Assembly: GCA_934667815.1 (NCBI GenBank)
Contig: CAKUMO010000013.1
Coordinates: 1 to 64,000, forward strand
DNA from: an uncultured Oscillospiraceae bacterium
GTDB lineage: Bacteria; Bacillota; Clostridia; Oscillospirales; Oscillospiraceae
DNA: 64,000 bases
Direction: 5' to 3'
The translations under genes were made by a program, and so were the position numbers. Each line of letters opens with the position of its first letter. Position 1 is the first letter of the stretch. This document shows positions 36,536-50,424 of the stretch, piece after piece. The notes below the pieces were generated by a model. It was not told where the DNA came from. It searched no databases and saw only the letters and a program-made list of their open reading frames with translations.

Positions 36536-38461
36536 ATGGTTTTTTGGAAGCGGGAGCTGCGCGACCTTGCGGCATCGCAGCGCCGGTTTGAAGATATTTT
36601 CCGCATTTTTACGGCAGAATTTACGGACACGCCCTTTTCCGAGCAGTACCGCGCCGGCCGCACGCTGCGCATGAGCTACGGTGAGCTGGCCGCGCTGTCG
36701 CAGCGCATCGCGCGCGTGCTGCACGCACGGTTTTTCGGGAAAGAGGGCGCTTTTCTTGCGCTCAAAATGGAAAATTCTCCGCTTTGGGTCGCGGCATTTT
36801 TCGGAACACTGCAGGCGGGCTTTAAGCCGCTGCTGCTGAATCTGCGTCTGGACGAGCAGACGCTGCGCGAGGTCATTTCCGAGGCACAGGCCGTCGGTGT
36901 GCTGACCGACCATGCGGAGGACGGCTGCTTTGACCTGTCAAGCTGCGAGGACGCGCCGGACTTCTCACCCTGCTGGGCAGATGAGATCGCCCTGATGACC
37001 TCGGGCACGACCGGTCGGTCAAAGCTGATCGTCTACACGGGCGCGGCCATTTGCGAACAGCTCTTGCAGACGAGCGAGATCGTCCGCCTCAGCCCGGAGA
37101 TCAAACACGACCGCCTCGCACGCGGCATCCGCATTCTGGCATTCCTGCCGTTTTACCACATTTTCGGCCTGTGCGCCACGCTGCTTTGGTTCATTTTCTT
37201 CGGCACGACCTTTATTTTTCTGGAATCTATGGATGCCAAAAACATCCAGTTTACCTGTAAATACGGGCGCGTTACGCACTTTTTTGCAATCCCGACCGTC
37301 TGGGACATGACTGCGCATCAGATCGTTAAAACGGCGCAGAAGCAGGGGCAGCTCGACAAGCTGCGCCGTGCGGTGCGCTTGTCCAACGGGCTGCAAAGCG
37401 TCCTGCCGCGCTTCGGCGCTTGGGCAGCGCGGAACGTCCTGTTCAAAAAGGTTCGTGCGCAGGCGCTCGGCACCGAGGTGATGTACTGCATCAGCGGCGG
37501 CGGCTTTATCCGCCCGGAAACGCTGGAGCTGATGAACGGCCTCGGCTATGGCCTGCGCAACGGCTACGGCATGACGGAAACGGGCATTTTGTCCGTAGAG
37601 CTGTCGCGCCGCGCCAAGATCCGCAATTCCGGCACCGTCGGCAAGCCTCTGAGCGCGGTCGGCGGCGGTGGCTACCGTATCTCTCCGGAGGGACTTTTGG
37701 AGGTGCGTGCACCGCTGCTCTATGCCGCTCAGATTGTCAACGGAGAGCGCATTGAGCGCGACCGCGACGCGTGGTTTGCTACGGGCGACTGCTTCCGCGT
37801 GGACAGCTCCGGCCGCTGGTTCATCACCGGCCGCCGCAGCGACCTCATCATCGGCGCCAACGGCGAAAACCTCAGCCCCGATCTCATTGAGCAGAGACTC
37901 GATCTGCATGCGGGCTTGGCCTCGTGCGTGCTCGGCATGGAGCTGGACGGCGACGAGCGCCCGGTTCTTTTGGTGCAGATGCCTGCACTGTCCGACGGTT
38001 ACGCCTGCGCGAGTGCCTCGCAGGCCGCGTTCAAGGCTGTTGATTCTCTCCCTCTGACGCTGCGCCCCGCACGCGTTTTCCTGACCGAACAGGAAATTCC
38101 GCAAAATCTCGGCAAAACGCGCCGCGCCGTTTTAAAACAGCGCCTCGCCGCGGGCGAGGTCACGCTCATTCCCGCGCTCAAAACGGATGCCGCGCAGCTC
38201 GCGGCCTTGCAGGACGAAGCGCTGGTTACACTGACAAAGGAGCTTTGTGCCGTCATCGCGGAGGTTACGAATGCCGAAGCCGTCACGCCGGAAACCCACG
38301 TTCTGAACGATCTCGGCGTGGACAGCATGACTTATTACGCAATTTTCTCCACCGTTTCCGAGCACTGCGGCGTCGAGCTGACGATGGACGCTGCGCATCC
38401 TCTGTTTACGCCGCGCGACTTCGCCGCCGAGGTGCTGCGCGAGAAAGGCGGCAAAGCATGA
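36536..38461 (+). CDS. Acyl-adenylating ligase fused to an acyl carrier protein
   Basis: A 641-residue protein. Residues about 20-510 form an ANL-superfamily adenylation domain: ATP loop LMTSGTTGRSK, FLPFYHIFG, the core NGYGMTETG, and FATGDCFRVDSSGRWFITGRRSDLIIGANGENLSP. Residues about 555-640 are a carrier-protein domain with the phosphopantetheine serine in DLGVDSMT (S597). It should activate a carboxylic (probably fatty) acid as acyl-AMP and load it on its own carrier arm, like fatty acyl-AMP ligase/ACP systems. ACGGAGG lies 8 nt before the ATG. The stop overlaps the first acyltransferase by 4 nt, suggesting the acyl-ACP is handed directly to it. The acid chain length cannot be read from sequence. 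Confidence 0.88.
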   Translation: MVFWKRELRDLAASQRRFEDIFRIFTAEFTDTPFSEQYRAGRTLRMSYGELAALSQRIARVLHARFFGKEGAFLALKMENSPLWVAAFFGTLQAGFKPLLLNLRLDEQTLREVISEAQAVGVLTDHAEDGCFDLSSCEDAPDFSPCWADEIALMTSGTTGRSKLIVYTGAAICEQLLQTSEIVRLSPEIKHDRLARGIRILAFLPFYHIFGLCATLLWFIFFGTTFIFLESMDAKNIQFTCKYGRVTHFFAIPTVWDMTAHQIVKTAQKQGQLDKLRRAVRLSNGLQSVLPRFGAWAARNVLFKKVRAQALGTEVMYCISGGGFIRPETLELMNGLGYGLRNGYGMTETGILSVELSRRAKIRNSGTVGKPLSAVGGGGYRISPEGLLEVRAPLLYAAQIVNGERIERDRDAWFATGDCFRVDSSGRWFITGRRSDLIIGANGENLSPDLIEQRLDLHAGLASCVLGMELDGDERPVLLVQMPALSDGYACASASQAAFKAVDSLPLTLRPARVFLTEQEIPQNLGKTRRAVLKQRLAAGEVTLIPALKTDAAQLAALQDEALVTLTKELCAVIAEVTNAEAVTPETHVLNDLGVDSMTYYAIFSTVSEHCGVELTMDAAHPLFTPRDFAAEVLREKGGKA

Positions 38462-39075
38462 AAGCGGTGTTTCGTTGGCTGAACAAATTTCTTCTTGGCT
38501 GGTCGGTGCTGCTGTATTTCCGCCCGCAGGTGCGCTGGGAGGAAAAGGGCAGCATGCCAAAGGGGCCGGTCATTCTGGCCGCCAATCACAAGAACCACAT
38601 GGACTTTTTGCTCCTGATGGCTGTGTTTTACTTCCGCTATCTGCGTTGCCTCGTCGGCAAGACGTTCTATGAGAGCAGCGGCATTATCAATTTCCTGCTG
38701 CGCATGCTCGGTGCGATTAAGGTCGACCGCTTCTCCTTCGACATGGCGTTCTTTTACGAGTGCATGGGCGCACTGAAAAAGGGGCAGACGCTGCTGATCT
38801 TCCCGGAGGGCAAGTTCTCCGTGGACGGCAAGCTGTCCGAGTTTCACGACACCGCTGCGCTGCTGGCCGTGCAGTCGGGCGTGCCGATCGTGCCGGTCTA
38901 TCACGGATATACCTATAAATTCTTCCATAAAACGCCTGTTGTTATCGGGAAACCTCTGGATTTTTCTGCGGAATGTTCGACGCAGAATCCAAGCCCCGAG
39001 CAACTCAAGCGCATGACCGCGCAGCTCCGCGAGAAGATCGTCGCACTGCGCGCGCTGGCGGGGGAGGACGCATGA
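38458..39075 (+). CDS. PlsC-like acyltransferase 1
   Basis: A 205-residue membrane-associated acyltransferase of the 1-acyl-glycerol-3-phosphate family. The catalytic H-x4-D box is NHKNHMD (H44, D49), the substrate box is FPEGKFS, and VPIVPVYHG is the fourth family block. The ATG overlaps the ligase stop. An amphipathic N-terminus (FRWLNKFLLGWSVLLYFRP) would seat it on the membrane. Acceptor unknown: lysophosphatidate is the family default, but the special locus suggests a dedicated lipid. Confidence 0.88.
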   Translation: MKAVFRWLNKFLLGWSVLLYFRPQVRWEEKGSMPKGPVILAANHKNHMDFLLLMAVFYFRYLRCLVGKTFYESSGIINFLLRMLGAIKVDRFSFDMAFFYECMGALKKGQTLLIFPEGKFSVDGKLSEFHDTAALLAVQSGVPIVPVYHGYTYKFFHKTPVVIGKPLDFSAECSTQNPSPEQLKRMTAQLREKIVALRALAGEDA

Positions 39076-39773
39076 AAGACTTTTTCCGGAATTTCTCCGC
39101 AAATTTTGCCAACGCCCTCGGCCGCTTCCTTGCCTGCCTCCTGTGGGCGCCGAAATTTCACTATCAAAAGGGCGCGGAAGCTGTCCGCAAGCCCGACGGC
39201 GGTACACTCTTTGTTCTGAACCACACATGGTGGTTCGACGCCGCTATTTTATGCGTCTTTTGCATGCGCCGCCATGTGCACGCCGTCGTTGCCATGGACG
39301 TGGCCAAAAAGGGCCACGCCACCGCCGCGCTGCACGGCCTGCGCTGCATCTGCGTTGACCGCGCACGCCCCGACCTTGCTTTCCTGCACGAGGCGCTTGG
39401 CATCCTCCGCGCGGGCGGCAGTGTGGCCATCTTCCCGGAGGGCCGGCTGAATCCCACGGACACGCTCCTGCCCTTCAAGCAAGGCGCTGCCATGCTCGCG
39501 CTGCAAGCGGGCGTGCAGGTCGTCCCGGTGTACTCCCTCGGGAACTATCAGCCCTTCCAGCGCTTGCAAATTATGCTCGGCACGCCCCTTCGCCTGCCGC
39601 AGAAGCCCAGCACTTCCGGCGTGCAGGAGGCCACTGCGCAGCTCCAGACCGCGATGCAGCAGCTTCAGGCCGAGCTGGAACAAACCGTTGCACCGAAATA
39701 TCTTGCCCGCAGCCGGCGCTTCCGCGCACGCTTTGCCGCGAAGCTCCTGCGCAGGCAGCAGAAGAAAGGATGA
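39072..39773 (+). CDS. PlsC-like acyltransferase 2
   Basis: A 233-residue second acyltransferase with H-x4-D box NHTWWFD (H51, D56), FPEGRLN and VVPVYSLGNY. It differs clearly from the first copy (TWW inside the box, divergent acceptor pocket), so it is not a recent duplicate and may act on a second position. It starts within the stop of the preceding gene (ATGA), and its stop is followed immediately by the ACP gene. Confidence 0.87.
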   Translation: MKDFFRNFSANFANALGRFLACLLWAPKFHYQKGAEAVRKPDGGTLFVLNHTWWFDAAILCVFCMRRHVHAVVAMDVAKKGHATAALHGLRCICVDRARPDLAFLHEALGILRAGGSVAIFPEGRLNPTDTLLPFKQGAAMLALQAGVQVVPVYSLGNYQPFQRLQIMLGTPLRLPQKPSTSGVQEATAQLQTAMQQLQAELEQTVAPKYLARSRRFRARFAAKLLRRQQKKG

Positions 39774-39778
39774 ATTTC

Positions 39779-40018
39779 ATGATTCTGGAACGTTTGCTTC
39801 ACGTCGCACAGGGCGTGCTCGAAGGCTCGGATGCCGATCTGACCGCCGTCACGCCGGAGACCACGCTTGAAAGTCTCGGTCTGAACAGCATCACCATGCT
39901 CATGCTGATGGTCGGCATCGAGGACGAATTTGCCATTACCTTCCCCTCCGAGCGCATCGGAGAGATCAAGACCGTGGGCGACCTCGTGCGCATCGTCGAG
40001 GAGTGCCAAAATGCGTAA
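39779..40018 (+). CDS. Free acyl carrier protein
   Basis: A 79-residue carrier protein. The phosphopantetheine serine is S37 in LESLGLNSITML, a variant of the usual DSL signature with Asn before the Ser; helix 1 (RLLHVAQGVLEG) and helix 3 fit. The ATG at 39779 is preferred over 39770 because AAAGGA ends 8 nt before it and touches the earlier one. It ends inside the start of the LRAT-like gene. It is probably a private acyl donor for the two acyltransferases rather than the fatty-acid-synthesis ACP. Confidence 0.88.
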   Translation: MILERLLHVAQGVLEGSDADLTAVTPETTLESLGLNSITMLMLMVGIEDEFAITFPSERIGEIKTVGDLVRIVEECQNA

Positions 40019-40454
40019 ATCACCGGCGGATTTTGAGGAACACTGGGACTACCGCGAGCCGCAGCCCGGCGATCAGCTCCGCGTGGAGCGCACGGGCTAT
40101 TATCACCACGGCATCTACGCCGGTGACGGCCGCGTCATCCACTTCAACGGCGGGCCGGACGCGCACGCCGCAGACGTCGAGGTGCAGGAGACGGACATTT
40201 CCGAATTTCTGCGCGGCGGTCTGCCCGAGGTACGCGTTTACAGCCGCGGGGAGCGCAAGCTCCTGCGCAAGCCGGACGAAATTCTGGCTGCGGCGCGTGC
40301 GGCGCTCGGCCGCCACGGCTACCATGTGCTGCGCAACAACTGCGAGCATTTTTCCAACGAATGCGCCTTCGGCGTGCACTATTCCAAGCAGACCGACTCT
40401 ATCCCCGACGGTGAAAAGCTGGATATGCACCGCGGCGAAAGCAAAAGCGGATAG
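40011..40454 (+). CDS. LRAT-like (NlpC/P60-fold) acyltransferase or hydrolase
   Basis: A 147-residue protein of the lecithin:retinol-acyltransferase family. The catalytic residues line up: H32 in YHHGIYAGDGRV, second His H44 (VIHF) and nucleophile C111 in NNCEHFSNE. Family members use a Cys to take an acyl chain from a phospholipid or thioester and pass it to an acceptor or water. No membrane segment is seen. It overlaps the ACP gene by 8 nt, the tightest coupling in the locus, so acyl-ACP or the product lipid is a plausible substrate. A divergent frame (40003-40458) covers the same DNA but has no family features. Confidence 0.88.
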   Translation: MRKSPADFEEHWDYREPQPGDQLRVERTGYYHHGIYAGDGRVIHFNGGPDAHAADVEVQETDISEFLRGGLPEVRVYSRGERKLLRKPDEILAAARAALGRHGYHVLRNNCEHFSNECAFGVHYSKQTDSIPDGEKLDMHRGESKSG

Positions 40455-40474
40455 ATAATTCTATATAAAAAATC

Positions 40475-40509
40475 AAAATACCCGCCTTGAATTTCAAGGT
40501 GGGTATTTT
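40475..40509. terminator. Terminator of the acyltransferase operon
   Basis: A long near-perfect palindrome (arms AAAATACCCGCCTTGAA and TTCAAGGTGGGTATTTT, one G-T pair) closing in a T-run on both strands. It opens the 377-bp gap 40455-40831. Confidence 0.85.
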
Positions 40510-40576
40510 GTCATAGAACAATCCGTAATGAATTTATCATCCAGAATATTTTTTATAAAAAATTATTGAAATACTA

Positions 40577-40605
40577 TTGACATTTTCCGGCAAATCATGT
40601 ATCCT
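40577..40605 (+). promoter_or_regulatory. Promoter 1 of the FtsX/MacB-like locus
   Basis: TTGACA (40577-40582), 17-nt spacer, TATCCT (40600-40605), followed by GCAAGTAGA. The block from -10 onwards is identical to the promoters at 43387 and 45453. Confidence 0.8.
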
Positions 40606-40675
40606 GCAAGTAGAGGAATCAACGAACTGAATACGCACTCCTTTTCAAGACAACTGCATTCTTCGCGCAGAGCTG

Positions 40676-40784
40676 ATAACAAACGCCTGATCAGCGGTTG
40701 TTATACAGGGCGATTGCAGCGATATTGGACGTCATATCGCCGCAATACCGCGCAGCGACAGCCGCAGGCCGATCGCGGCTGCGC
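40676..40784 (+). promoter_or_regulatory. Structured leader with three successive hairpins
   Basis: Within the roughly 220-nt leader of the small Cys-rich gene three stems occur in a row: ATAACAA...TTGTTAT around CTGATCAG (40676-40704); ATTGC-a-GCGATAT with ATATCGC-c-GCAAT (40713-40746, 12 bp with one mismatch); and CAGCCGC / GCGGCTG, alternatively GCGCAG / CTGCGC (40750-40784). No T-run follows any of them. This could be a riboswitch, a ribosome-pausing leader or a small RNA; no known class was recognised. Confidence 0.5.
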
Positions 40785-40831
40785 CCACGGTGATTGGCAG
40801 CAAAAACATTGACATTAGAAAGGAGCCGCAA

Positions 40832-41296
40832 ATGAATAAAACTGCTTCCAAATTCCTCGCAATTCTCCTGACCCTTGCAATGCTTTTCTCCCTCGCGACC
40901 CTCGCCCTCGCACATGACGAATTCGATGTGGAACCCCATGACGAATGCGTCGAAGAAGCCCTCGAGGAGGAAGTGTCCGTACAAGCCACCTGTAAGCATA
41001 ACTGGGTGCAGAACGAACCTTATTACGTCCGTCACGCCGGGGACTATCTCAGCGCTACCGAGTGCCGCGCCGTTTTGAGAAAGGTTGCGGAATGCACGCT
41101 GTGTCATGCAAAGGTTCCGGCAGATTCTTATGTAGTGATGCCGCACAAAGTATACATAGACTCCGCAACCTGCACAGGCACAGTACAGACATGGCACAAA
41201 AGCTGCAACTACTGCGGCGAAGTAAAAACAACGGAGACGCACCCTTGTCCCGGAGCTTCCCACGTCGGTTCCAAGTGCCTCTGGCTGCCCATCTGA
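40832..41296 (+). CDS. Small secreted Cys/His-rich protein
   Basis: A 154-residue protein with a signal peptide (TASKFLAILLTLAMLFSLATLALA, cleaved before HDEF). The mature part starts with an acidic stretch (DEFDVEPHDECVEEALEEE) and has nine cysteines with several histidines, arranged as C-K-H-N-W, C-T-L-C-H, C-T-G and C-N-Y-C-G. This zinc-ribbon-like spacing recalls the Cys repeats of the large surface proteins here, but no family was recognised. AAAGGAG is 6 nt before the ATG. It shares its promoter type with permease copies 2 and 3 and has no terminator before copy 1. It could be a metal- or redox-sensing exoprotein, an exported effector, or a partner of the permeases. Confidence 0.65.
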   Translation: MNKTASKFLAILLTLAMLFSLATLALAHDEFDVEPHDECVEEALEEEVSVQATCKHNWVQNEPYYVRHAGDYLSATECRAVLRKVAECTLCHAKVPADSYVVMPHKVYIDSATCTGTVQTWHKSCNYCGEVKTTETHPCPGASHVGSKCLWLPI

Positions 41297-41329
41297 GTTA
41301 TGAAAACCGTTCCGGCGTTTTAACCGCAC

Positions 41330-41362
41330 GCCCGGCGCATATATGCCCTATGTGCGCCGGGC
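41330..41362 (+). promoter_or_regulatory. Hairpin before permease copy 1
   Basis: GCCCGGCGCA / TGCGCCGGGC, a 10-bp perfect stem with a 13-nt loop, lies in the gap between the secreted protein and the first permease. Without a T-run it is more likely an RNA processing or translation-control hairpin; partial attenuation is possible. Confidence 0.5.
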
Positions 41363-41385
41363 ACCCCACAGATTGGAGGGTAACC

Positions 41386-43323
41386 ATGAACCTGTTCTTC
41401 ACACTTCTTCGGCGGCGGGCGGTGCTGTTCGGCCTGCTGGCGGTGCTGCTGGCCGCGGTGATTGCCTTTTACTGCATCGCTTTTTCCGCGCTTGACGCCG
41501 TGCAGACGCAGCGTGCCGCCGTCAGCGGACAGTACACGACGGTCGGCATCCCGAAACTCGACATCGACTGGCGGAAAGTTCTTTTTACGCGAGACGGCGG
41601 TTTTACCGCCCTCTCACAACAGGACACGACCTATCCCGGCCTGATCACCGAAGATCGACGCGTATTCATGACCGCGCACGTCCCCGGCTGTCAGGCCGTT
41701 TCTGCATATGAGCGGGGCTTTTTTTCCGAACCTGCTGCTGCCTACGACGCGTATGCCAAGTCTCTATCTGTACTGGCTGTGCGGTGCACCGCTTCCTCAG
41801 AAGCATGCTACGAGGCCAACCGATCGATTATCGACGAGGCCACAAACGAGATCATCTCTACGACCTATCAGCAGCGAATGTACTATTCCACCTTTACCCT
41901 TGAATCCGTTATCAGTCAATTCCCGGCTTATGAAGATGCGCTCCCGCCGATCACAGACCTTACCATATCTTGCAGTCTCTACCCAAACGACGGCAAGATT
42001 CCCTTTGAGGAAGGTAAGACCTATCTGGTGTTCGGCTGTGCAATCTTCGCCAATCGTGAGATTGTTGACTATGATGAAAATGGGGAAGTCATTTATGATT
42101 TGATGTCTCCCGGTCACTGCCTGATGCGCCCCGGTACTGACGAGGGAGCCAGTGACACCGGCTTATTTCAATTTGACGGCCCGGGACGTGATTTCCTGTT
42201 CACATGGCAGGGCGTGAGCTCCGAGGATGACGGTACCTATCAGCGGCTGGCCGCGGATTCGCTTCCTTTCTGCGCGGAATATGAGGGCAGTGTTGAGGCG
42301 TTTCTTGCCAGTGATGCAGGCCAAGTCTGGCGTGAGACCATTCTGCCCATGTGCCAAACAAACTACGAGAGCGCGGGCGTTATTTTAACGGATAATCTGG
42401 AGAGCATGTTCTGGTTCAACACCGGCGATGCCGCGATCATCGAGGGGCGCAGCTTTGAGGCTCCTGAATATGCCAACGGCGAGGAGGTCTGTCTCGTCAG
42501 CGCTACCTATGCCATGAAAAACGGGCTGTCCGTCGGACAGGAGCTTGAGCTGGATTTATATCGTTCCAAGCTCACAACACGCCTCGTCGCGAAAGAAGGA
42601 CTATTTGCATCTTATAAGGTTGCCAATGTCCACGAGCCGTGCAAGGAGGAAAACCGACTCGGCATCAAGAAAAATTACCGCATCGTCGGCATTTATTCCG
42701 CACCGGAATTTGAAACGGGGGAGATCAGCTTCTATGCCGACACCATCTTTATCCCAAAAGCCTCCGTCCCGAATGCTGCAAATTACGAGGTGCTCGGCAA
42801 CCGTCTGCTCTATTCCGTGATTCTCGAAAACGGCAAGGCCGACGAGTTTGAAGCGGCGCTCGAAGCGCGAGACTGCGGCGGCCTGTTTGCCTACTATGAC
42901 CAGGATTACAACGTCCTGGCTGAGACCCTTGACGTGATGCGCGGAAACGCCCTTCGCATGCTCTGGATCGGCAGTGCGCTGTTTGCCCTCGTGGCGGCGC
43001 TGTTCCTGCTCCTGTTCTTCCGCCAGACCGCCGACCCGGCCAAAAAGCTGCGTCTGCTGGGTGTAAGCGCAAAGCGCGTAAGGCGGCAGCGCTACCTCGC
43101 GGCAGTGCTGCTCATTGCGCTGGCTTCCGTTCTGGGTGCGGCAGGCGGCGCAGGGCTTTACGGTGCGGTCTCAACGCGAATTTTATCCAGTTATGTTGCC
43201 ATGCGTCCCGCAGCGCTGCTCGTCTCCACCGCAGCACAGGCTTTCCTGCTCCTTCTCGCCGCCCTCGTCTGCACCCTCGCCACCGCCAACCAGAACCTGA
43301 TGCAGTGCCGAAAGCAGAGGTGA
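41386..43323 (+). CDS. MacB/FtsX-like permease, copy 1 of 3
   Basis: A 645-residue membrane protein with MacB topology: one N-terminal helix (LFGLLAVLLAAVIAFYCIAF), a large extracytoplasmic domain (about 40-515), then three C-terminal helices (WIGSALFALVAALFLLLFF; VLLIALASVLGAAGGAGLYG; LLVSTAAQAFLLLLAALVC). The cytoplasmic loop DPAKKLRLLGVSAKRVRRQR is the likely ATPase contact, without the Glu usually seen in FtsX coupling motifs. Copies 1-3 are nearly identical at both ends and differ in a central block (about residues 135-290) and a short patch (about 395-415). GGAGGG precedes the ATG at 41386; the frame is open upstream without a start site. It has no own promoter and probably depends on the one at 40577. 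Confidence 0.82.
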   Translation: MNLFFTLLRRRAVLFGLLAVLLAAVIAFYCIAFSALDAVQTQRAAVSGQYTTVGIPKLDIDWRKVLFTRDGGFTALSQQDTTYPGLITEDRRVFMTAHVPGCQAVSAYERGFFSEPAAAYDAYAKSLSVLAVRCTASSEACYEANRSIIDEATNEIISTTYQQRMYYSTFTLESVISQFPAYEDALPPITDLTISCSLYPNDGKIPFEEGKTYLVFGCAIFANREIVDYDENGEVIYDLMSPGHCLMRPGTDEGASDTGLFQFDGPGRDFLFTWQGVSSEDDGTYQRLAADSLPFCAEYEGSVEAFLASDAGQVWRETILPMCQTNYESAGVILTDNLESMFWFNTGDAAIIEGRSFEAPEYANGEEVCLVSATYAMKNGLSVGQELELDLYRSKLTTRLVAKEGLFASYKVANVHEPCKEENRLGIKKNYRIVGIYSAPEFETGEISFYADTIFIPKASVPNAANYEVLGNRLLYSVILENGKADEFEAALEARDCGGLFAYYDQDYNVLAETLDVMRGNALRMLWIGSALFALVAALFLLLFFRQTADPAKKLRLLGVSAKRVRRQRYLAAVLLIALASVLGAAGGAGLYGAVSTRILSSYVAMRPAALLVSTAAQAFLLLLAALVCTLATANQNLMQCRKQR

Positions 43324-43448
43324 AAAACTCTACAAAGATATTTTGATTTCAAAAACATATTTTTGTGGAATTATAAGACAAACTACTTGACAATACTTCG
43401 CAAATTGTGTATCCTGCAAGTAGACAGATGAAAGCGAGGTATGGACGC
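43324..43448 (+). repeat. 125-bp intergenic repeat, first copy
   Basis: Identical by eye to 45390-45514. It carries a TTGACA promoter and the ribosome site for the next permease copy, and marks the junction of a tandem duplication with a 2066-bp period. Confidence 0.9.
43387..43415 (+). promoter_or_regulatory. Promoter 2 of the FtsX/MacB-like locus
   Basis: TTGACA (43387-43392), 17-nt spacer, TATCCT (43410-43415), then GCAAGTAGA, inside the 125-bp repeat. Confidence 0.8.
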
Positions 43449-45389
43449 ATGAACCTGTTCTTCACACTTCTTCGGCGGCGGGCGGTGCTGTTCGGCCTGC
43501 TGGCGGTGCTGCTGGCCGCGGTGATTGCCTTTTACTGCATCGCTTTTTCCGCGCTCGACGCCGTGCAGACGCAGCGTGCCACCGTCAGCGGCCAGTACAC
43601 GACGGTCGGCATCCCGACGTTTGATTACAAGTGGCAAAAAGCACTTACGGAAGATGACGGCGGCGAAATGAAATCGCTCTTGCTGCACAAAACAACCTAT
43701 CCCGGCCTGATCACCGAAGATCGACGCGTATTCATGACCGCGCACGTCCCCAGCTGTCAGGCCGTTTCTGCATTTGAGCGTGGGTTTCTCTCCGGCCCGG
43801 CCGAGGCATATGATGCCTACACAAAATCTCTGGTCGTGCTGGCCGTGCGCTGCACTTCTTCATCGGAGGCATGCTATGAAAGCTCCAGAGCCACATTGGA
43901 TGAGGAAACAGGTCAGATTACCGGCTATAAATCCTACTGGCAGCGGTTATTCTCGTCAAAGTTTGCCTTAGAATCTGTCCTCAGTCAATTTCCGGCCTAT
44001 GAAGATGTTCTCCCACCAATTACGGAGCTTTCCATAAGTTCCAGTCTCTACCCGCATAACGGGGAGCTGCCCTTTGAGGAGGGCAAAACCTATCTGGTGT
44101 TCGGCTGCATTGAGCCAAGCAACCGTTCCCTCGTCGGCTTTAATGAGGATGGCAGCTTCGCCGTCGATTTCATGTTCCCCGGCAATTACTGGATTCACCC
44201 CGGCTTTATGGATGCAGTTTATGATTCGCCTTTTTTGTTTGAGGGTCCGGGGCACGATTTTCTATATTCATGGCAAGGCGTGGACTCCGAAAATAATGGC
44301 TCTTATCAGCGGCTGGATGCGGATTCGCTTCCCTACTGCGCGGAATATGAGGGCAGTGTTGAAGAGTTTCTTGCCAGTGACGCAGGCAAAGTCTGGCGCG
44401 AAACCATTCTGCCCATGTGCCAAATAAATTACGAGAGTGCAGGCGTTATTCTAACGGACAATCTGGAGAGTGTTCTCTGGTTTAACACCGGTGACGCCGC
44501 GATCATCGAGGGGCGCAGCTTTGAGGCTCCCGAGTATGCCAACGGCGAGGAGGTCTGTCTCGTCAGTGCGGCCTATGCCATGAAAAACGGGCTGTCCGTC
44601 GGACAGGAGCTTGAGCTGGATCTTTATCGTTCCCAGATCAAAACCCGTACGGTCTTTCAAAGTTCGCTTGCTGTTGAGATGGTTCCGGCCAACATTCACG
44701 AACCCTGCAAAGAGCAAAACCGCCTCGGCATCAAGAAAAATTACCGCATTGTCGGCATTTATTCCGCACCGGAATTTGAAACGGGGGAGATCAGCTTCTA
44801 TGCCGACACCATCTTTATCCCCAAAGCCTCCGCCCCGAACGCTGCAAATTACGAAGTGCTCGGCAGCCGCCTGCTCTACTCTGTGATTCTCGAGAACGGC
44901 AGAATGCCTGAATTCGAAACCGCAATGGGTGCGCGAGACTGCGGCGGCCTGTTTGCCTACTACGATCAGGATTACAACGTCCTGGCCGAGACCCTTGACG
45001 TGATGCGCGGAAACGCCCTTCGCATGCTCTGGATCGGCAGCGCGCTGTTTGTCCTCGTGGCGGCGCTGTTCCTGCTCCTGTTCTTCCGCCAGACTGCCGA
45101 CCCGGCCAAAAAGCTGCGTCTGCTCGGTGTAAGCGCGAAGCGCGTAAGGCGGCAGCGCTACCTCGCGGCAGTGCTGCTCATTGCGCTGGCTTCCGTTCTG
45201 GGTGCGGCAGGCGGCGCGGGGCTTTACGGCGCGGTCTCAACGCGAATTCTGTCCAGCTATGTTGCCATGCGACCCGCAGCGCTGCTCGTTTCCACCGCCG
45301 CGCAGGCTTTCCTGCTCCTTCTCGCCGCCCTCGTCTGCACCCTCGCCACCGCCAACCAGAACCTGATGCAGTGTCGAAAGCAGAGGTGA
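43449..45389 (+). CDS. MacB/FtsX-like permease, copy 2 of 3
   Basis: A 646-residue paralogue with the same topology as copy 1. It differs from copies 1 and 3 already at about residue 45 (PTFDYKWQKALTEDDGGEM in place of PKLDIDWRKVLFTRDGGFT) and through residue about 300, then rejoins them. The variable block includes SSRATLDEETGQITGYKSYW and FMFPGNYWIHPGFMDAVYDS. The second patch reads KTRTVFQSSLAVEMVPAN. GCGAGG lies 8 nt before the ATG at 43449. The gene has its own promoter. Confidence 0.82.
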   Translation: MNLFFTLLRRRAVLFGLLAVLLAAVIAFYCIAFSALDAVQTQRATVSGQYTTVGIPTFDYKWQKALTEDDGGEMKSLLLHKTTYPGLITEDRRVFMTAHVPSCQAVSAFERGFLSGPAEAYDAYTKSLVVLAVRCTSSSEACYESSRATLDEETGQITGYKSYWQRLFSSKFALESVLSQFPAYEDVLPPITELSISSSLYPHNGELPFEEGKTYLVFGCIEPSNRSLVGFNEDGSFAVDFMFPGNYWIHPGFMDAVYDSPFLFEGPGHDFLYSWQGVDSENNGSYQRLDADSLPYCAEYEGSVEEFLASDAGKVWRETILPMCQINYESAGVILTDNLESVLWFNTGDAAIIEGRSFEAPEYANGEEVCLVSAAYAMKNGLSVGQELELDLYRSQIKTRTVFQSSLAVEMVPANIHEPCKEQNRLGIKKNYRIVGIYSAPEFETGEISFYADTIFIPKASAPNAANYEVLGSRLLYSVILENGRMPEFETAMGARDCGGLFAYYDQDYNVLAETLDVMRGNALRMLWIGSALFVLVAALFLLLFFRQTADPAKKLRLLGVSAKRVRRQRYLAAVLLIALASVLGAAGGAGLYGAVSTRILSSYVAMRPAALLVSTAAQAFLLLLAALVCTLATANQNLMQCRKQR

Positions 45390-45514
45390 AAAACTCTACA
45401 AAGATATTTTGATTTCAAAAACATATTTTTGTGGAATTATAAGACAAACTACTTGACAATACTTCGCAAATTGTGTATCCTGCAAGTAGACAGATGAAAG
45501 CGAGGTATGGACGC
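45390..45514 (+). repeat. 125-bp intergenic repeat, second copy
   Basis: Identical by eye to 43324-43448, including the promoter and ribosome site. Confidence 0.9.
45453..45481 (+). promoter_or_regulatory. Promoter 3 of the FtsX/MacB-like locus
   Basis: TTGACA (45453-45458), 17-nt spacer, TATCCT (45476-45481), then GCAAGTAGA. Confidence 0.8.
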
Positions 45515-47452
45515 ATGAACCTGTTCTTCACACTTCTTCGGCGGCGGGCGGTGCTGTTCGGCCTGCTGGCGGTGCTGCTGGCCGCGGTGATTGCCTTTTA
45601 CTGCATCGCTTTTTCCGCGCTTGACGCCGTGCAGACGCAGCGTGCCGCCGTCAGCGGACAGTACACGACGGTCGGCATCCCGAAACTCGACATCGACTGG
45701 CGGAAAGTTCTTTTTACGCGAGACGGCGGTTTTACCGCCCTCTCACAACAGGACACGACCTATCCCGGCCTGATCACCGAAGATCGACGCGTATTCATGA
45801 CCGCGCACGTCCCCGGCTGTCAGGCCGTTTCTGCATATGAGCGGGGCTTTTTTTCCGAACCTGCTGCTGCCTACGACGCGTATGCCAAGTCTCTATCTGT
45901 ATTGGCTGTGCGGTGCACATCCGTTTCAGAACAAACCCTTGAAACAACCGAAGCCATCGCGGAAAAGACTGGCGAAGACTCCTTTACGATTAAGGGATAT
46001 CGAACCATTATAGCCCAGAGATTCGATGCCGCTTTTTCCTTAGAATCTATTGTTAGTCAGTTCTCGGGCTATGATAACATTTTTCCTCCAATCACGGATG
46101 TTCACATTGGTTCGGGCCTCTATCTAAATGACGGCACACTACCCTTTAAAGAAGGCAAGACGTATCTGGTTTTTGGCTGTGTCAAGCCAAGTAATCTCAT
46201 CCGAGTTGACTATGACGAAAATGGTGATGCCATAGCGGACTTCATGTCTCCCGGCAATTGTTTTATTGCGCCAGCCAGTTATGAGACTTTTTCCGATAAC
46301 TTTGCCATGTATAACGGAGCGGGACACGATTTTTTGTTTTCATGGCAAAGTGTCGAGGCCGATGGCATCAATTATTTGCAATTAGACGAAAGCTCGCTTC
46401 CTTTCTGCGCGGAATATGAGGGCAGTGTTGAGGCGTTTCTTGCCAGCGATGCAGGCCAAGTCTGGCGCGAAACCATTCTGCCCATGTGCCAAACAAACTA
46501 CGAGAGCGCGGGCGTTATTTTAACGGATAATCTGGAGAGCATGTTCTGGTTCAACACCGGCGATGCTGCGATCATCGAGGGACGCAGCTTTGAGGCTCCT
46601 GAATATGCCAACGGCGAAGATGTCTGTCTCGTCAGCGCTACCTATGCCATGAAAAACGGGCTGTCCGTCGGGCAGGAGCTTGAGCTGGATCTTTATCGTT
46701 CCCAGCTTACTACCCGAACTGTTTTAATGGGAGAGATCACCGTAGTGCAAGCACTTGCCAATGTCCACGAGCCGTGCAAGGAGGAACACCGCCTCGGCAT
46801 CAAGAAAAATTACCGCATTGTCGGCATTTATTCCGCACCGGAATTTGAAACGGGGGAGATCAGCTTCTATGCCGACACCATCTTTGTCCCCAAAGCCTCC
46901 GTCCCGAATGCTGCAAATTACGAGGTGCTCGGCAACCGTCTGCTCTATTCCGTGATTCTCGAAAACGGCAAGGCCGACGAGTTTGAAGCGGCGCTCGAAG
47001 CGCGAGACTGCGGCGGCCTGTTTGCCTACTACGACCAGGATTACAACGTCCTTGCCGAGACGCTTGACGTGATGCGCGGCAATGCCCTTCGTATGCTTTG
47101 GATCGGCAGCGTGCTGTTTGCCCTCGTGGCGGCACTGTTCCTGCTCCTGTTCTTCCGCCAGACCGCCGACCCGGCCAGAAAGCTGCGTCTGCTGGGTGTA
47201 AGCGCGAAGCGCGTAAGGCGGCAGCGCTACCTCGCGGCAGTGCTGCTCATTGCGCTGGCTTCCGTTCTGGGTGCGGCAGGCGGCGCGGGGCTTTACGGCG
47301 CGGTCTCAACGCGAATTTTATCCAGTTATGTTGCCATGCGCCCCGCAGCACTGCTCGTTTCCACCGCCGTACAGGCTTTCCTGCTCCTTCTCGCCGCCCT
47401 CGTCTGCACCCTCGCCACCGCCGACCAGAACCTGATGCAGTGCCGAAAATGA
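45515..47452 (+). CDS. MacB/FtsX-like permease, copy 3 of 3
   Basis: A 645-residue paralogue. The first about 400 bp match copy 1 with only one difference noticed, although its upstream region matches copy 2, so the three genes are mosaics. Its central block (about residues 135-290) is the most divergent (SVSEQTLETTEAIAEKTGED, FSGYDNIFPPITDVHIG, FIAPASYETFSDNFAMYNG) and more AT-rich than its flanks. The second patch is TTRTVLMGEITVVQALAN. The rest of the extracytoplasmic domain and the C-terminal helices match the others. The next permease begins 8 nt after its stop. Confidence 0.82.
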   Translation: MNLFFTLLRRRAVLFGLLAVLLAAVIAFYCIAFSALDAVQTQRAAVSGQYTTVGIPKLDIDWRKVLFTRDGGFTALSQQDTTYPGLITEDRRVFMTAHVPGCQAVSAYERGFFSEPAAAYDAYAKSLSVLAVRCTSVSEQTLETTEAIAEKTGEDSFTIKGYRTIIAQRFDAAFSLESIVSQFSGYDNIFPPITDVHIGSGLYLNDGTLPFKEGKTYLVFGCVKPSNLIRVDYDENGDAIADFMSPGNCFIAPASYETFSDNFAMYNGAGHDFLFSWQSVEADGINYLQLDESSLPFCAEYEGSVEAFLASDAGQVWRETILPMCQTNYESAGVILTDNLESMFWFNTGDAAIIEGRSFEAPEYANGEDVCLVSATYAMKNGLSVGQELELDLYRSQLTTRTVLMGEITVVQALANVHEPCKEEHRLGIKKNYRIVGIYSAPEFETGEISFYADTIFVPKASVPNAANYEVLGNRLLYSVILENGKADEFEAALEARDCGGLFAYYDQDYNVLAETLDVMRGNALRMLWIGSVLFALVAALFLLLFFRQTADPARKLRLLGVSAKRVRRQRYLAAVLLIALASVLGAAGGAGLYGAVSTRILSSYVAMRPAALLVSTAVQAFLLLLAALVCTLATADQNLMQCRK

Positions 47453-47460
47453 GGTGACTT

Positions 47461-48642
47461 ATGAAACATTCCGCCTTTTCCCTGTTCCGTGTGAGCGCTG
47501 CGGCGCTCTGGCGCCGCAAGGGTGCAAGCCTGCTCCTGCTGCTTTTGTCCGCATTGGGCGTGTTCTCTGCGGCGCTGCTGCAAAATCTCGCGCTGCGGCA
47601 GCAGGAGTCCATGACAGAAATGATTGCAAACACGCTGATTCGCTGTGTCGTCACGGACGCGAACGGTGCGTCGAGCGACAATCTCGCCATGCCCGCCTCC
47701 TACGTCGACCGTCTGCTCGGCGGCTGGCATGATCGCGAGTGTTACCTTGACGAAGCTGTCAAAAACGTCCGCGCAAAAGCCTCGCTGTCTCTGACCTCGC
47801 CGCGCGACGTGACGCTTTGCCGCATCCTGAATTTGGCGTCGGACAGCGCCTTCGACGAGGTCTCCGGCGCACAGGCAGTGTTTTTCGACGGCTGGTCGGA
47901 GGATGCGCTGGCGGGCACGGAGCGCGTATGCCTGCTGCCGGAATCCATGCTGCCGCAAGCTCGGACGGACGGTGACGGCAGCCTCTGGCTGGACGTTTCC
48001 GTCGGCGAGGTGAACACGTCTCTGCGCGTCATCGGCACGGTCAGCGGGCAGACGGGGGGAACGGTCTGGTGCCCGTTATACATACAGTTACGCGACGGAA
48101 TATCCGAGAGCTTCCGCATCGACCGCTGCTCCTTCGACATCCGTGACAACGCCCGTCTGGACGAAAACAAGAAAATAATTTACGACACATTTGTCTCCCC
48201 GAAGCTCGCAAACACCTCGGGCGAAACTAAATTCGGCGTGTTCATCAACGATGAGGAATTTACCGGCTCTGTGCGGGAATTTGAGTCGAATCTGAAAACA
48301 CTGCGTCTGCTTTCGCCCATTTTGCTGGTGCTGTTTGCGGGGGTCGGCTTCCTCGCGGCTTATCTCACCACCCGCGGCCGTAAGCGCGAATTTGCCGTGA
48401 TGCGCTGCATCGGCCGCAAGCAGTTTGGTATCACGCTGCAAGTATTTTTGGAGCAGCTTTTCCTCGCGCTGGTCGGCGCGGCGCTCGGTGTGAGCATTGC
48501 GCTGCTGATCGAGGGCGGTTATCCGCTCAGCGCGTTGACGCGCGCGGGAACGCTGCTGGGGCTTTTCCTGTTCGGTGCGGCCGCAGCCTGCCTGATGGTC
48601 ACGCGAGTCAACGTTATGAAACTTATGAAAACGGAGGATTAA
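47461..48642 (+). CDS. FtsX-like permease
   Basis: A 393-residue membrane protein: an N-terminal helix (ASLLLLLLSALGVFSAALL), an extracytoplasmic domain (about 45-270) and three C-terminal helices. The canonical FtsX coupling segment RGRKREFAVMRCIGRKQFG is present, unlike in the three paralogues upstream. GAGGTG lies 7 nt before the ATG. It sits between the paralogues and the ATPase, so it may pair with any of them to make heterodimeric exporters or mechanotransmission complexes of the MacB/LolCE/BceB type. Confidence 0.85.
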   Translation: MKHSAFSLFRVSAAALWRRKGASLLLLLLSALGVFSAALLQNLALRQQESMTEMIANTLIRCVVTDANGASSDNLAMPASYVDRLLGGWHDRECYLDEAVKNVRAKASLSLTSPRDVTLCRILNLASDSAFDEVSGAQAVFFDGWSEDALAGTERVCLLPESMLPQARTDGDGSLWLDVSVGEVNTSLRVIGTVSGQTGGTVWCPLYIQLRDGISESFRIDRCSFDIRDNARLDENKKIIYDTFVSPKLANTSGETKFGVFINDEEFTGSVREFESNLKTLRLLSPILLVLFAGVGFLAAYLTTRGRKREFAVMRCIGRKQFGITLQVFLEQLFLALVGAALGVSIALLIEGGYPLSALTRAGTLLGLFLFGAAAACLMVTRVNVMKLMKTED

Positions 48643-48644
48643 CC

Positions 48645-49307
48645 ATGGAACGTTTGGAAGCAAGGGACGTGCGCTACGAATACCGCACGAAATTGCAGCT
48701 TGTCCGTGCGGTCAACGGCGTGAGCTGCGTCTTTGAACCGGGTAAGGTCTATGCCGTGGTCGGCGCGTCCGGCAGCGGAAAGACGACCTTCCTCTCGCTG
48801 CTGGCCGGGCTGGACGTTCCCGCCGGCGGTGCGATCACACTGGACGGCAAGTCCACCGCCGACCTTGACCGCGATGCCTACCGGCTGGAGCACGTCTCGG
48901 TGATCTACCAGAATTACAACTTGTTTTATCATTTAACGGTACTTGAGAATGCGGCATATCCGCTCTATGTGAAAAAAATCGCAAAGAAGGACGCCGATGC
49001 TGTCGCGCGGCGGACGCTCCTGCGCGTCGGCCTGACGGAGGAGCAGCTTACGCGTCTGCCGAATATGCTCTCCGGCGGCGAACAGCAGCGCGTGGCTATC
49101 GCGCGGGCGCTGGCCTCGGGCAGTGAGCTGATTTTGGCTGACGAGCCGACCGGCAACCTCGACAGCGAGAACAGCCGCAACATCGTTGAAATTTTACAGA
49201 GCCTCGCACACGATGAGCGGCGCTGCGTGATCGTCGTCACACACGACCCCGACGTCGCCGCCTCTGCCGATGTCTGCCTGCATATGAAGGACGGAAAATT
49301 GCAGTGA
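48645..49307 (+). CDS. ABC transporter ATP-binding protein, MacB/LolD type
   Basis: A 220-residue cytoplasmic ATPase. Walker A GASGSGKTT (40-48), Q-loop in VIYQNYNLF, signature LSGGEQQRVAIARAL (142-156), Walker B LILADEPTGNLDSEN (162 onward) and switch His in VVTHDPDVA are all intact. The LADEPTGNLD string is typical of the LolD/MacB/BceA group that works with FtsX-fold permeases. GGAGG precedes the ATG, 2 nt after the permease stop. It is the only ATPase in this locus and must serve all four permeases if they are transporters. Confidence 0.92.
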   Translation: MERLEARDVRYEYRTKLQLVRAVNGVSCVFEPGKVYAVVGASGSGKTTFLSLLAGLDVPAGGAITLDGKSTADLDRDAYRLEHVSVIYQNYNLFYHLTVLENAAYPLYVKKIAKKDADAVARRTLLRVGLTEEQLTRLPNMLSGGEQQRVAIARALASGSELILADEPTGNLDSENSRNIVEILQSLAHDERRCVIVVTHDPDVAASADVCLHMKDGKLQ

Positions 49308-49391
49308 ATTGTTGAAATAAATGGTGCTTTGTTACTGACATGGGTCATCCTGTCAGCACAGATCCATGTCCGGCCACATTACAGACAGACA

Positions 49392-49430
49392 GCAAAAGCA
49401 CCCTGCCGAAAACCGGCAGGGTGCTTTTGC
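49392..49430. terminator. Terminator between convergent genes, divergent copy of the repeated hairpin
   Basis: GCAAAAGCACCCTGCCG / CGGCAGGGTGCTTTTGC, a 17-bp perfect stem with a T-rich end on both strands. The inner CCCTGCCG core is the same as in the four other repeated terminators. Confidence 0.88.
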
Positions 49431-49444
49431 ACCGCGTTTGAAGG

Positions 49445-50221
49445 TTATTTCACGCGTTCACGGTTGTTTTCTGCAATGCGGTCGGCAAAGGAGGGCGTTT
49501 TTTCTTTGCGGCCGAGGCGCTCGGTGAAGCGGCGGGTGTAGGCGATGAAAATGCAGTAGACATAGGGCATGCCGAGGTTCGTCTCCAGCAGCGAATTGAC
49601 GACCAGCGTGCGCAGCTTCTCGCCGAAGCTCGCAAAGCCCGCGCTGCGGATGCCGCCGAGCAGCAGCCCGGCCTCCCAGCCAAGCTGCACGCCCACGCCG
49701 ATGGCAAGCAGCCATGCAAGATGCATCCGCTTTTCCGGTGCGGTCTGTCGCAGATTGTAGCAGATCGCGCCAAGATAGCCGGCAAACAGGATCGCGGCCA
49801 TATAGCCGTGATACGCGCCTGTGGTGCGCTGAATGACAATGACGGCTGCGTCCGGCGCGAAGGTCTGCGTCAGCAGCGGGCAGCAGAACCACCATCCGAG
49901 AATCAGCAGCGACCATTCAAGCAGATGCTCGTCCTTGGACAGTGCCAGCCAGATCCATGTGAAATTTGTAAAGCCATAGCTCATGGACATCCAGAGCAGT
50001 ACCCAGAACAGACTGTAGCCCTCGGTGATGCTGCGGCTGTGACACACGAGGTGAAAAATGCCATAATCCACCAGCAGATACACCGCGCCCATCACCAGTC
50101 CGACAAGCACGGTCATGTATTTTTTCTTCCATAGAAGTAATCCGAGATACGCGACCAGAAACACAATATCCAGCCAAATGTAAAGCGGCGAAAATTGCCG
50201 CCGCGCAATGAGTTCTGCCAT
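49445..50221 (-). CDS. Polytopic membrane protein of unknown function
   Basis: A 258-residue protein with about seven hydrophobic segments (YIWLDIVFLVAYLGLLLW; YMTVLVGLVMGAVYLLVDYGIF; SLFWVLLWMSMSYGFTNFTWIWL; LLEWSLLILGWWFCCPLL; AILFAGYLGAICY; HLAWLLAIGVGVQLGWEAGLLL; GMPYVYCIFIAYT) and a basic C-terminal tail. The family was not recognised. GGAGGGG lies 6 nt before the ATG at 50221. It has its own promoter (50242-50270) and is transcribed alone. Nothing nearby suggests a specific job. Confidence 0.75.
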   Translation of the reverse strand: MAELIARRQFSPLYIWLDIVFLVAYLGLLLWKKKYMTVLVGLVMGAVYLLVDYGIFHLVCHSRSITEGYSLFWVLLWMSMSYGFTNFTWIWLALSKDEHLLEWSLLILGWWFCCPLLTQTFAPDAAVIVIQRTTGAYHGYMAAILFAGYLGAICYNLRQTAPEKRMHLAWLLAIGVGVQLGWEAGLLLGGIRSAGFASFGEKLRTLVVNSLLETNLGMPYVYCIFIAYTRRFTERLGRKEKTPSFADRIAENNRERVK

Positions 50222-50241
50222 AAATATCCCCTCCGACACCT

Positions 50242-50270
50242 ATTATATAAAAACCGGCGCTGTGCGTCAA
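50242..50270 (-). promoter_or_regulatory. Promoter of the unknown membrane protein
   Basis: Leftward TTGACG (50270-50265), 17-nt spacer, TATAAT (50247-50242). The -10 box is 21 nt from the start codon, so the leader is very short. Confidence 0.8.
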
Positions 50271-50424
50271 GTGCGGCGGATTTTCAAAAATCTGTCGATT
50301 TTCCAAAAAATCGCAGAATAGACCACTAGGATTCAATTGTAAAATCCGCTAAACTAAAATCGGAAAACCGCGAATAGAGCAGCGTTTTGCCAAAAACCGA
50401 CAACGGAAAGGAATGGGGTATTTT

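Follow-up and report, generated by a model that had tools for sequence, protein, structure and literature searches.

The window considered here is the whole stretch of 64,000 nucleotides that was analysed, positions 1 to 64,000 of the forward strand of contig CAKUMO010000013.1 (assembly GCA_934667815.1), from an uncultured Oscillospiraceae bacterium. Three large permease genes stand head to tail in it, all of them open. A gene encoding a small cysteine-rich protein, called secr below, lies on their 5' side, and genes encoding an FtsX-like subunit and an ATP-binding cassette (ABC) ATPase lie on their 3' side. The gene order, the mosaicism of both the permeases and secr, and the recurrence of the set in other genomes are read from the sequence. 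The features of the locus are the following.

40577..40614, + strand: promoter-like site, TTGACA-17-TATCCT plus GCAAGTAGA, ahead of secr (pattern match)
40832..41296, + strand: secr, 154-aa Cys-rich protein with a signal-like N terminus, candidate ligand; recurs before homologous permeases
41330..41362, + strand: GC-rich hairpin in the gap between secr and copy 1, possible control of expression ratio (fold test)
41386..43323, + strand: large permease copy 1, 645 aa
41788..42270, + strand: variable block A of copy 1 (residues 135-295)
42571..42633, + strand: variable patch B of copy 1 (residues 396-416)
43324..43448, + strand: spacer between copies 1 and 2, 125 bp, promoter-like site at 43387-43424
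43449..45389, + strand: large permease copy 2, 646 aa (block about 43854-44336, patch about 44637-44699)
45390..45514, + strand: spacer between copies 2 and 3, 125 bp, promoter-like site at 45453-45490
45515..47452, + strand: large permease copy 3, 645 aa (block about 45917-46405, patch about 46706-46768)
47461..48642, + strand: FtsX-like small permease subunit, single and common to all copies (FtsX Pfam match; kept beside the permease)
48645..49307, + strand: ABC ATPase of the LolD/MacB class, single and common to all copies (ABC_tran and LolD matches)

Conserved flanks and variable blocks in three permease copies

The differences among the three copies are concentrated in two regions. Residues 135-295 vary in 106 of 161 columns and residues 396-416 in 15 of 21. 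The counts are 1/50 for residues 1-50, 23/84 for 51-134, 8/100 for 296-395, 5/66 for 417-482, 6/25 for 483-507 and 5/136 for 508-643, the part that holds transmembrane helices (TM) 2-4. Measured in 20-codon windows, nucleotide identity between copies was 83-100% in most flanking windows, 41-80% in windows of codons 141-300 and 38-48% in codons 401-420, with extra dips at about codons 57-79 and 483-500 where copy 2 alone deviates. Copies 1 and 3 were identical over 387 compared nucleotides from the start codon to codon 131 (maximum of 5000 permutations, 86 nucleotides). For all three pairs, the longest identical run and the densest cluster of differences exceeded all 5000 permutations of site order, and the two 125-bp spacers were identical to each other. 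Which copies differ also changes along the gene: all three pairings differ in codons 126-300, and only copy 2 deviates in codons 51-125 and 476-500. Such a regional change would follow from a separate conversion of each segment.

Every copy is matched by a full-length counterpart of its own in other data (copy 1 and P0001, 97.1% identity; copy 2 and P0003, 96.4%; copy 3 and P0002, 98.5%), and for this reason the sequences make an assembly artefact an unlikely source of the copies. The first-pass annotation had described near-identical flanks around a divergent block at about residues 135-290 and a patch at about 395-415, and the column counts, permutations and identical spacers bore this description out. 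Uniform divergence or artefactual copies, which it had named as grounds for giving up its proposal, were rejected on the clustering of differences and the separate counterparts. Its placement of the block outside the membrane also held in an AlphaFold2 model of the permease (predicted local distance difference test, pLDDT, 89.9; predicted template modelling score, pTM, 0.81). The model has TM1 at residues 12-49, an outer domain at 50-507, within which the block lies, and TM2-4 at 508-634. The outer domain contains a long hairpin (127-150/155-177) and, further on, another (396-403/409-416), and when variable columns were set against the secondary structure of the model, the most variable stretches included both.

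The alleles were compared among the three copies and P0001-P0022, drawn from 94 homologues (7999 scored candidates). The closest homologues are proteins without genomic context, and lineages were defined by the membrane part alone. Across the copies and P0001-P0010, block 135-295 falls into four alleles with at least 94% identity within and 31-58% between them: allele I in copy 1 and P0001, II in copy 2 and P0003, III in copy 3, P0002 and P0004-P0007, and IV in P0008-P0010. Residues 384-482 form a second module with four types (97-100% identity within), of which i, ii and iii share 80-86% with one another and iv shares 53-56% with the others. Residues 500-643 are 95-100% identical across all 13 proteins. 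The two modules are reassorted. P0004-P0007 and P0010 carry type iv with 100% identity, although the first modules share only 33%, and type ii is common to copy 2, P0003, P0008 and P0009. Six of the 16 combinations of first and second module were seen.

The trees of the two ends of the permease disagree. In the tree of residues 500-643 the window lineage formed one group, although its support was not strong (79/87), and P0011-P0022 formed another (98/96). In the tree of residues 44-295, P0008-P0010 clustered with P0015-P0019 and other rows of P0011-P0022 (8 of 12; support 98/94), and a constraint keeping the first lineage together was rejected by the approximately unbiased (AU) test (p=3.5e-5). 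Either the block alleles are older than the divergence of the lineages or blocks pass from one lineage to another. Two hallmarks of a tandem polymorphic array of the EsaG/TipC type were found: tandem non-identical paralogues with conserved blocks and spacers around variable regions, and different trees for different regions. The same pattern recurs elsewhere. Among six further sets, each made up of two or three permeases of a single genome, five (L001, L003, L107, L112 and contigs L099/L100 of G371) show conserved ends and a variable middle, with 90-100% identity in the last three 40-codon windows and 37-53% in the least identical middle windows. The sixth set (L051/L096 of G510) is 34-58% identical throughout, with no conserved-end pattern.

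The ratio of nonsynonymous to synonymous substitution rates (dN/dS) bears on how the block diverged. Between pairs of copies the main block had dN 0.32-0.46 and dS 1.5-4.0, the latter near saturation, which gives a dN/dS of 0.11-0.26. Positive selection as judged by pairwise dN/dS was rejected as the cause of the main block on these values. In the 21-codon patch (396-416) the ratio was 0.22 and 0.71, the third pair not being computable. In the membrane part (TM2-4) dS was 0.15-0.16. Because dS in the block is about ten times that of the membrane part or more, the block alleles look old, fold-constrained and swapped as modules, and the flanks young or homogenised, rather than the block being a product of recent fast amino-acid change. 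The earlier proposal of diversifying selection plus gene conversion survives in part: the homogenised flanks and the recombination of modules agree with gene conversion, and the low ratio in the block speaks against diversifying selection. The first-pass annotation had itself counted a block dN/dS well below 1 against its proposal, and the ratio is well below 1. It had not noted the stretches where copy 2 alone deviates, the FtsX-like and ATPase genes, secr with its mosaicism, or the repeated promoter-like sites. Its suggestion that the block may recognise different peptides, toxins or surface ligands gains a candidate ligand in secr, described below.

ABC partners and the secreted cysteine-rich protein

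The solved folds closest to the permease model are type VII ABC permeases; a sequence search of solved chains with the permease gave no match at E<=0.1. Copies 1, 2 and 3 score 27.3, 24 and 27.2 bits on MacB_PCD, whose cut-off of 27 leaves copy 2 below it. Among 66 aligned members (the three copies and 63 of the 94 homologues), MacB_PCD was matched at E<=0.01 by all 66 and FtsX by 22. The FtsX-like subunit reaches 23.6 bits on the FtsX Pfam model, just below the cut-off of 25.5. The ATPase scores 113 bits on ABC_tran, and its best NCBIfam model is LolD at 191.5 bits, below that model's cut-off of 307.75. By predicted topology, modelled fold, domain matches and partner ATPase, the permeases are members of the type VII ABC transporter class (MacB/LolCE/FtsX). 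Two natural fusions support a heterodimer of the large permease and the FtsX subunit: P0048 joins the whole permease to the FtsX subunit, and P0054 joins most of it (profile positions 1-530 of 645). In G371 a permease stands alone (L099) in addition to a complete operon (L100), which interchangeable large subunits would lead one to expect. A PADLOC search matched the ATPase to 11 models (best mad3, E 2.2e-31), which we read as common ATPase sequence, and returned nothing for the permease, secr or the FtsX subunit.

The protein encoded by secr in the window has a hydrophobic, signal-peptide-like N terminus. In an alignment of 19 rows, C125 and C128 are invariant and C88, C91, C139 and C149 are at least 90% conserved. 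The secr model is all-beta after the signal (pLDDT 81.1, pTM 0.55), and no solved relative was found by Foldseek and VIA. No Pfam or NCBIfam family matched the window secr at E<=0.1. At the same threshold the 19 members matched 7 Pfam and 12 NCBIfam families, each set matching few members. Like the permease, secr is mosaic: the window secr and P0097 are 96% identical in the signal region, 93% in the C part and 29% in the middle, and P0096 resembles the window secr in the first two parts (98% and 89%) and differs in the C part (58%). In the secr of another lineage (P0102-P0111), near-identical signal regions precede differing middles and C parts, and in P0110 and P0111 the chain ends differently (CIDPQ). 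A 91-aa secr in L105 (3388-3663) keeps the signal and C part without the variable middle block, and L111 has a second secr-like gene (5056-5547, 49 bits) 3' of the ATPase in the same operon. On the far side of the window operon, 50413-55779 encodes a protein of 1788 aa that looks secreted and has a GDPD domain, three Laminin_G_3 domains and several bacterial Ig-like ones; its Cys-rich CxxC C-terminal segment has secr-like motifs by eye.

The order secr, permease(s), FtsX, ATPase was also found in L001, L002, L003, L102, L103, L105, L107, L111, L113 and L114, the secr of L002 being without its signal part. L001, from an Oscillospiraceae metagenome-assembled genome (MAG), reads secr, permease, permease, secr, permease, FtsX, ATPase, with one promoter-like site before each of its three modules (TTGACA-17-TATGAT, TATGCT and TATGAT). 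L003, from a Clostridia MAG, reads secr, permease, secr, permease, FtsX, ATPase. When pairing was counted as a profile match at most 400 nucleotides upstream on the same strand, secr preceded 15 of the 35 permease genes, which lie in 26 stretches; L147 is a sixteenth case by the ends of open reading frames, 37 nucleotides apart. Some relatives among the homologues carry the name Faecousia sp. (P0023, 47% identity; P0034, 45%), and together with L001 they point to an Oscillospiraceae-like gut bacterium as the host. A contig scan of genomes with an 18-row alignment gave four loci. Permease matches at E<=0.001 occurred in 4 of 4, 5 of 25, 56 of 400, 38 of 136 and 11 of 42 genomes, and these were distant only (at most 44% identity).

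The promoter-like pattern, which was derived from the window itself before being counted there, has three exact matches in the window (before secr, copy 2 and copy 3) and none in shuffles. An AAGGAG motif lies upstream of the secr start. The hairpin at 41330..41362 has a fold z of -3.48, with equal stability in 1 of 200 shuffles, and is without a T-run. An Rfam scan of 39500-50500 gave no match, the hairpin included. The hairpin could set the ratio of secr to permease. Just 5' of the locus and on the same strand, 36536-40454 carries a run of lipid-type genes, which may form a small acyl-lipid pathway: a ligase of the AMP-binding type that includes a carrier domain, a carrier protein, an LRAT-domain protein and two acyltransferases of PlsC type.

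A possible immunity array and the alternatives

The reading that we favour, to which we give a little less than an even chance, is that a common ABC core serves recognition subunits that can be exchanged and are directed at a polymorphic secreted protein, the whole most probably being a bacteriocin/immunity array. The locus would be one operon-like system, in which modules of promoter, secr and large permease share the one FtsX-like subunit and the one ABC ATPase encoded after them. Most likely, each large permease makes up a type VII ABC transporter together with these two. The N terminus and membrane part would be kept alike by selection and gene conversion because, in this proposal, they must fit the common partners, and the outer domain would be an exchangeable recognition part, so that the large subunit is swapped to change specificity. 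The adjacent Sec-type Cys-rich secr, itself polymorphic, is on sequence grounds the likely ligand of the variable outer domain. It would act as a bacteriocin-like antagonist, and the permeases would be immunity subunits, binding it so as to remove it or keep it out. Having a promoter-like site but no secr, copies 2 and 3 may then be extra immunity genes against other variants. The polymorphism of secr and the outer domain, the extra permeases that have no secr, the hairpin and the peptide-signalling type of regulators near some relatives fit a bacteriocin/immunity array best. Also in its favour are the recurring gene order, the conserved ends and variable middle of five other sets, the permease-FtsX fusions, the lone permease of G371 and the promoter-like sites ahead of modules in the window and L001. 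Pairing with the FtsX subunit and the ATPase, ligand binding, toxicity and immunity are what we infer.

Several points weigh against this reading. The dN/dS of the block is low. The protein secr matches no bacteriocin family in Pfam or NCBIfam (19 members searched) and no solved fold. The window has one secr for three permeases, and secr is missing upstream of 19 of the 35 permeases, among them the groups L096-L098 and L100, L101, L104. Since whole groups lack it, the pairing of secr and permease is frequent and not universal. The count is also not independent, because the stretches were fetched for their permeases and most secr were found upstream of these. A more independent check speaks for the pairing: across 394 genomes of the order, secr scored above 70 bits six times, each time beside permeases, and two of these matches (in G004) came from outside the query alignment. 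The G004 contigs end inside permease genes, so such arrays may be under-represented in short-read assemblies.

We advance more tentatively a second reading, that the locus is a combinatorial receptor of gut Oscillospiraceae-like bacteria, with a constant core of FtsX subunit and ATPase and with interchangeable large subunits, whose recognition face would be built from two recombining modules and matched to a co-polymorphic secr. Its alleles would predate the lineages in which they occur (trans-species polymorphism), as under balancing selection for self/non-self recognition.

Could the system signal, or recognise self and non-self, without killing? Here secr would be a polymorphic signal and the permease, FtsX subunit and ATPase a flux sensor or mechanotransmission receptor resembling BceAB or FtsEX. 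Regulators occur near some relatives: HTH+TPR in L104 (with similar starts in L102, L103 and L105), LytTR/GHKL in L098, PadR in L001 and L112, and a sigma factor in L003. The operons of L096-L098, with permease, FtsX and ATPase genes and no secr, adjoin oppositely oriented response regulator and kinase genes; the L098 pair was matched as LytTR and GHKL, and those of L096 and L097 are alike by sequence only. Among the neighbours of the window operon, judged from their sequences, no regulator or sensor kinase can be made out; regulators vary between lineages, and other type VII members match the fold at least as well. We consider signalling without killing unlikely.

Transport of secr or of a metal bound to it, with a Cys/His-rich carrier exported, recycled or stripped, appears less likely still. 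Such a carrier needs no allelic middle block, no swapped C part and no trans-lineage repertoire of outer domains, and secr has its own signal-like N terminus. Escape from phage or host immunity, in which the outer domain is a surface receptor or antigen and secr is incidental, would account for an outer domain that varies over a conserved core and would suit the gut origin suggested by relatives. However, secr recurs as a neighbour across divergent loci and is mosaic too, all permease copies are intact and are retained alongside a dedicated FtsX subunit and ATPase, and scans of viral contigs (12 stretches matched, none a relative) and plasmids (no match) found no phage or plasmid link; we regard escape as very improbable. 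Neutral divergence, relaxed constraint or an assembly artefact, with which the dN/dS below 1 in every computable region would agree, is scarcely credible given discrete, reassorted alleles, their pattern in five of six other sets, a counterpart elsewhere for each copy and differences more clustered than in all 5000 permutations.

If the favoured bacteriocin/immunity reading is true, this would be a case of an ABC transporter that recognises through a polymorphic and modular subunit, with the gene of the likely ligand next to it. The locus also points to a secreted protein family for which no Pfam or NCBIfam entry was found, and it offers natural block swaps for binding and protection assays. 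Neither an FtsX-like permease with gene conversion nor lactococcin 972 with FtsX was found treated jointly in open-licence texts of PubMed Central (PMC).

Comparison with known systems

Type VII ABC transporters (MacB, LolCDE, YtrEF, BceAB and FtsEX) share with the window permeases the succession of TM1, outer domain and TM2-4, the MacB_PCD domain and the predicted fold. The window permeases differ in their outer domain, which spans about 458 residues and includes hypervariable modules and a long hairpin (127-177), and in having several interchangeable large subunits per ATPase. MacB itself carries a fused ATPase.

EsaG and TipC form tandem immunity arrays of type VII secretion systems (T7SS) that recombine (PMC9484751). 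The likeness lies in tandem non-identical paralogues with similar spacers, conserved blocks between variable regions and trees that depend on the region (PMC9484751). Those arrays encode immunity proteins to T7SS toxins, whereas here the repeated element is an ABC permease subunit whose role in immunity is proposed, with common FtsX and ATPase partners and a co-polymorphic small secreted protein.

Lactococcin 972 and streptococcin loci encode a small Sec-secreted bacteriocin, a membrane protein and an ABC ATPase (PMC4055356, PMC11796350). The window resembles that outline in having the gene of a small secreted protein directly 5' of membrane protein and ABC ATPase genes. Its ATPase scores 173.9 bits on TIGR03608, not reaching the cut-off of 254.85, and 3 of the 66 permeases match TIGR01654 weakly (E<=0.01, best E 2.2e-4). 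The window differs in having two permease subunits, the large one repeated and mosaic. The FtsX subunit scores 11.3 bits on TIGR01654 against a cut-off of 189.35, which was reached in none of seven relatives' genomes, whereas the control, Lactococcus lactis, was positive. As to the beta-sandwich fold of the lactococcin 972 bacteriocin, the model of secr gives an all-beta chain after the signal, with no solved relative found by Foldseek or VIA. The lactococcin 972 family was absent from the matches of the 19 secr members at E<=0.1 in the Pfam and NCBIfam libraries, which presumably include it. Membership of the lactococcin 972 family was rejected at sequence level, with the bacteriocin family and the cut-offs of TIGR01654 and TIGR03608 all missed, so the proposal is that the system works like lactococcin 972, and not that it belongs to it. 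According to PMC11796350, there is no lactococcin 972 locus in which experiments have verified what the immunity and transporter gene products do. If the window system works alike, its set of alleles would make that question directly testable. By analogy, the locus would parallel lactococcin 972 in gene order and EsaG/TipC in mode of evolution.

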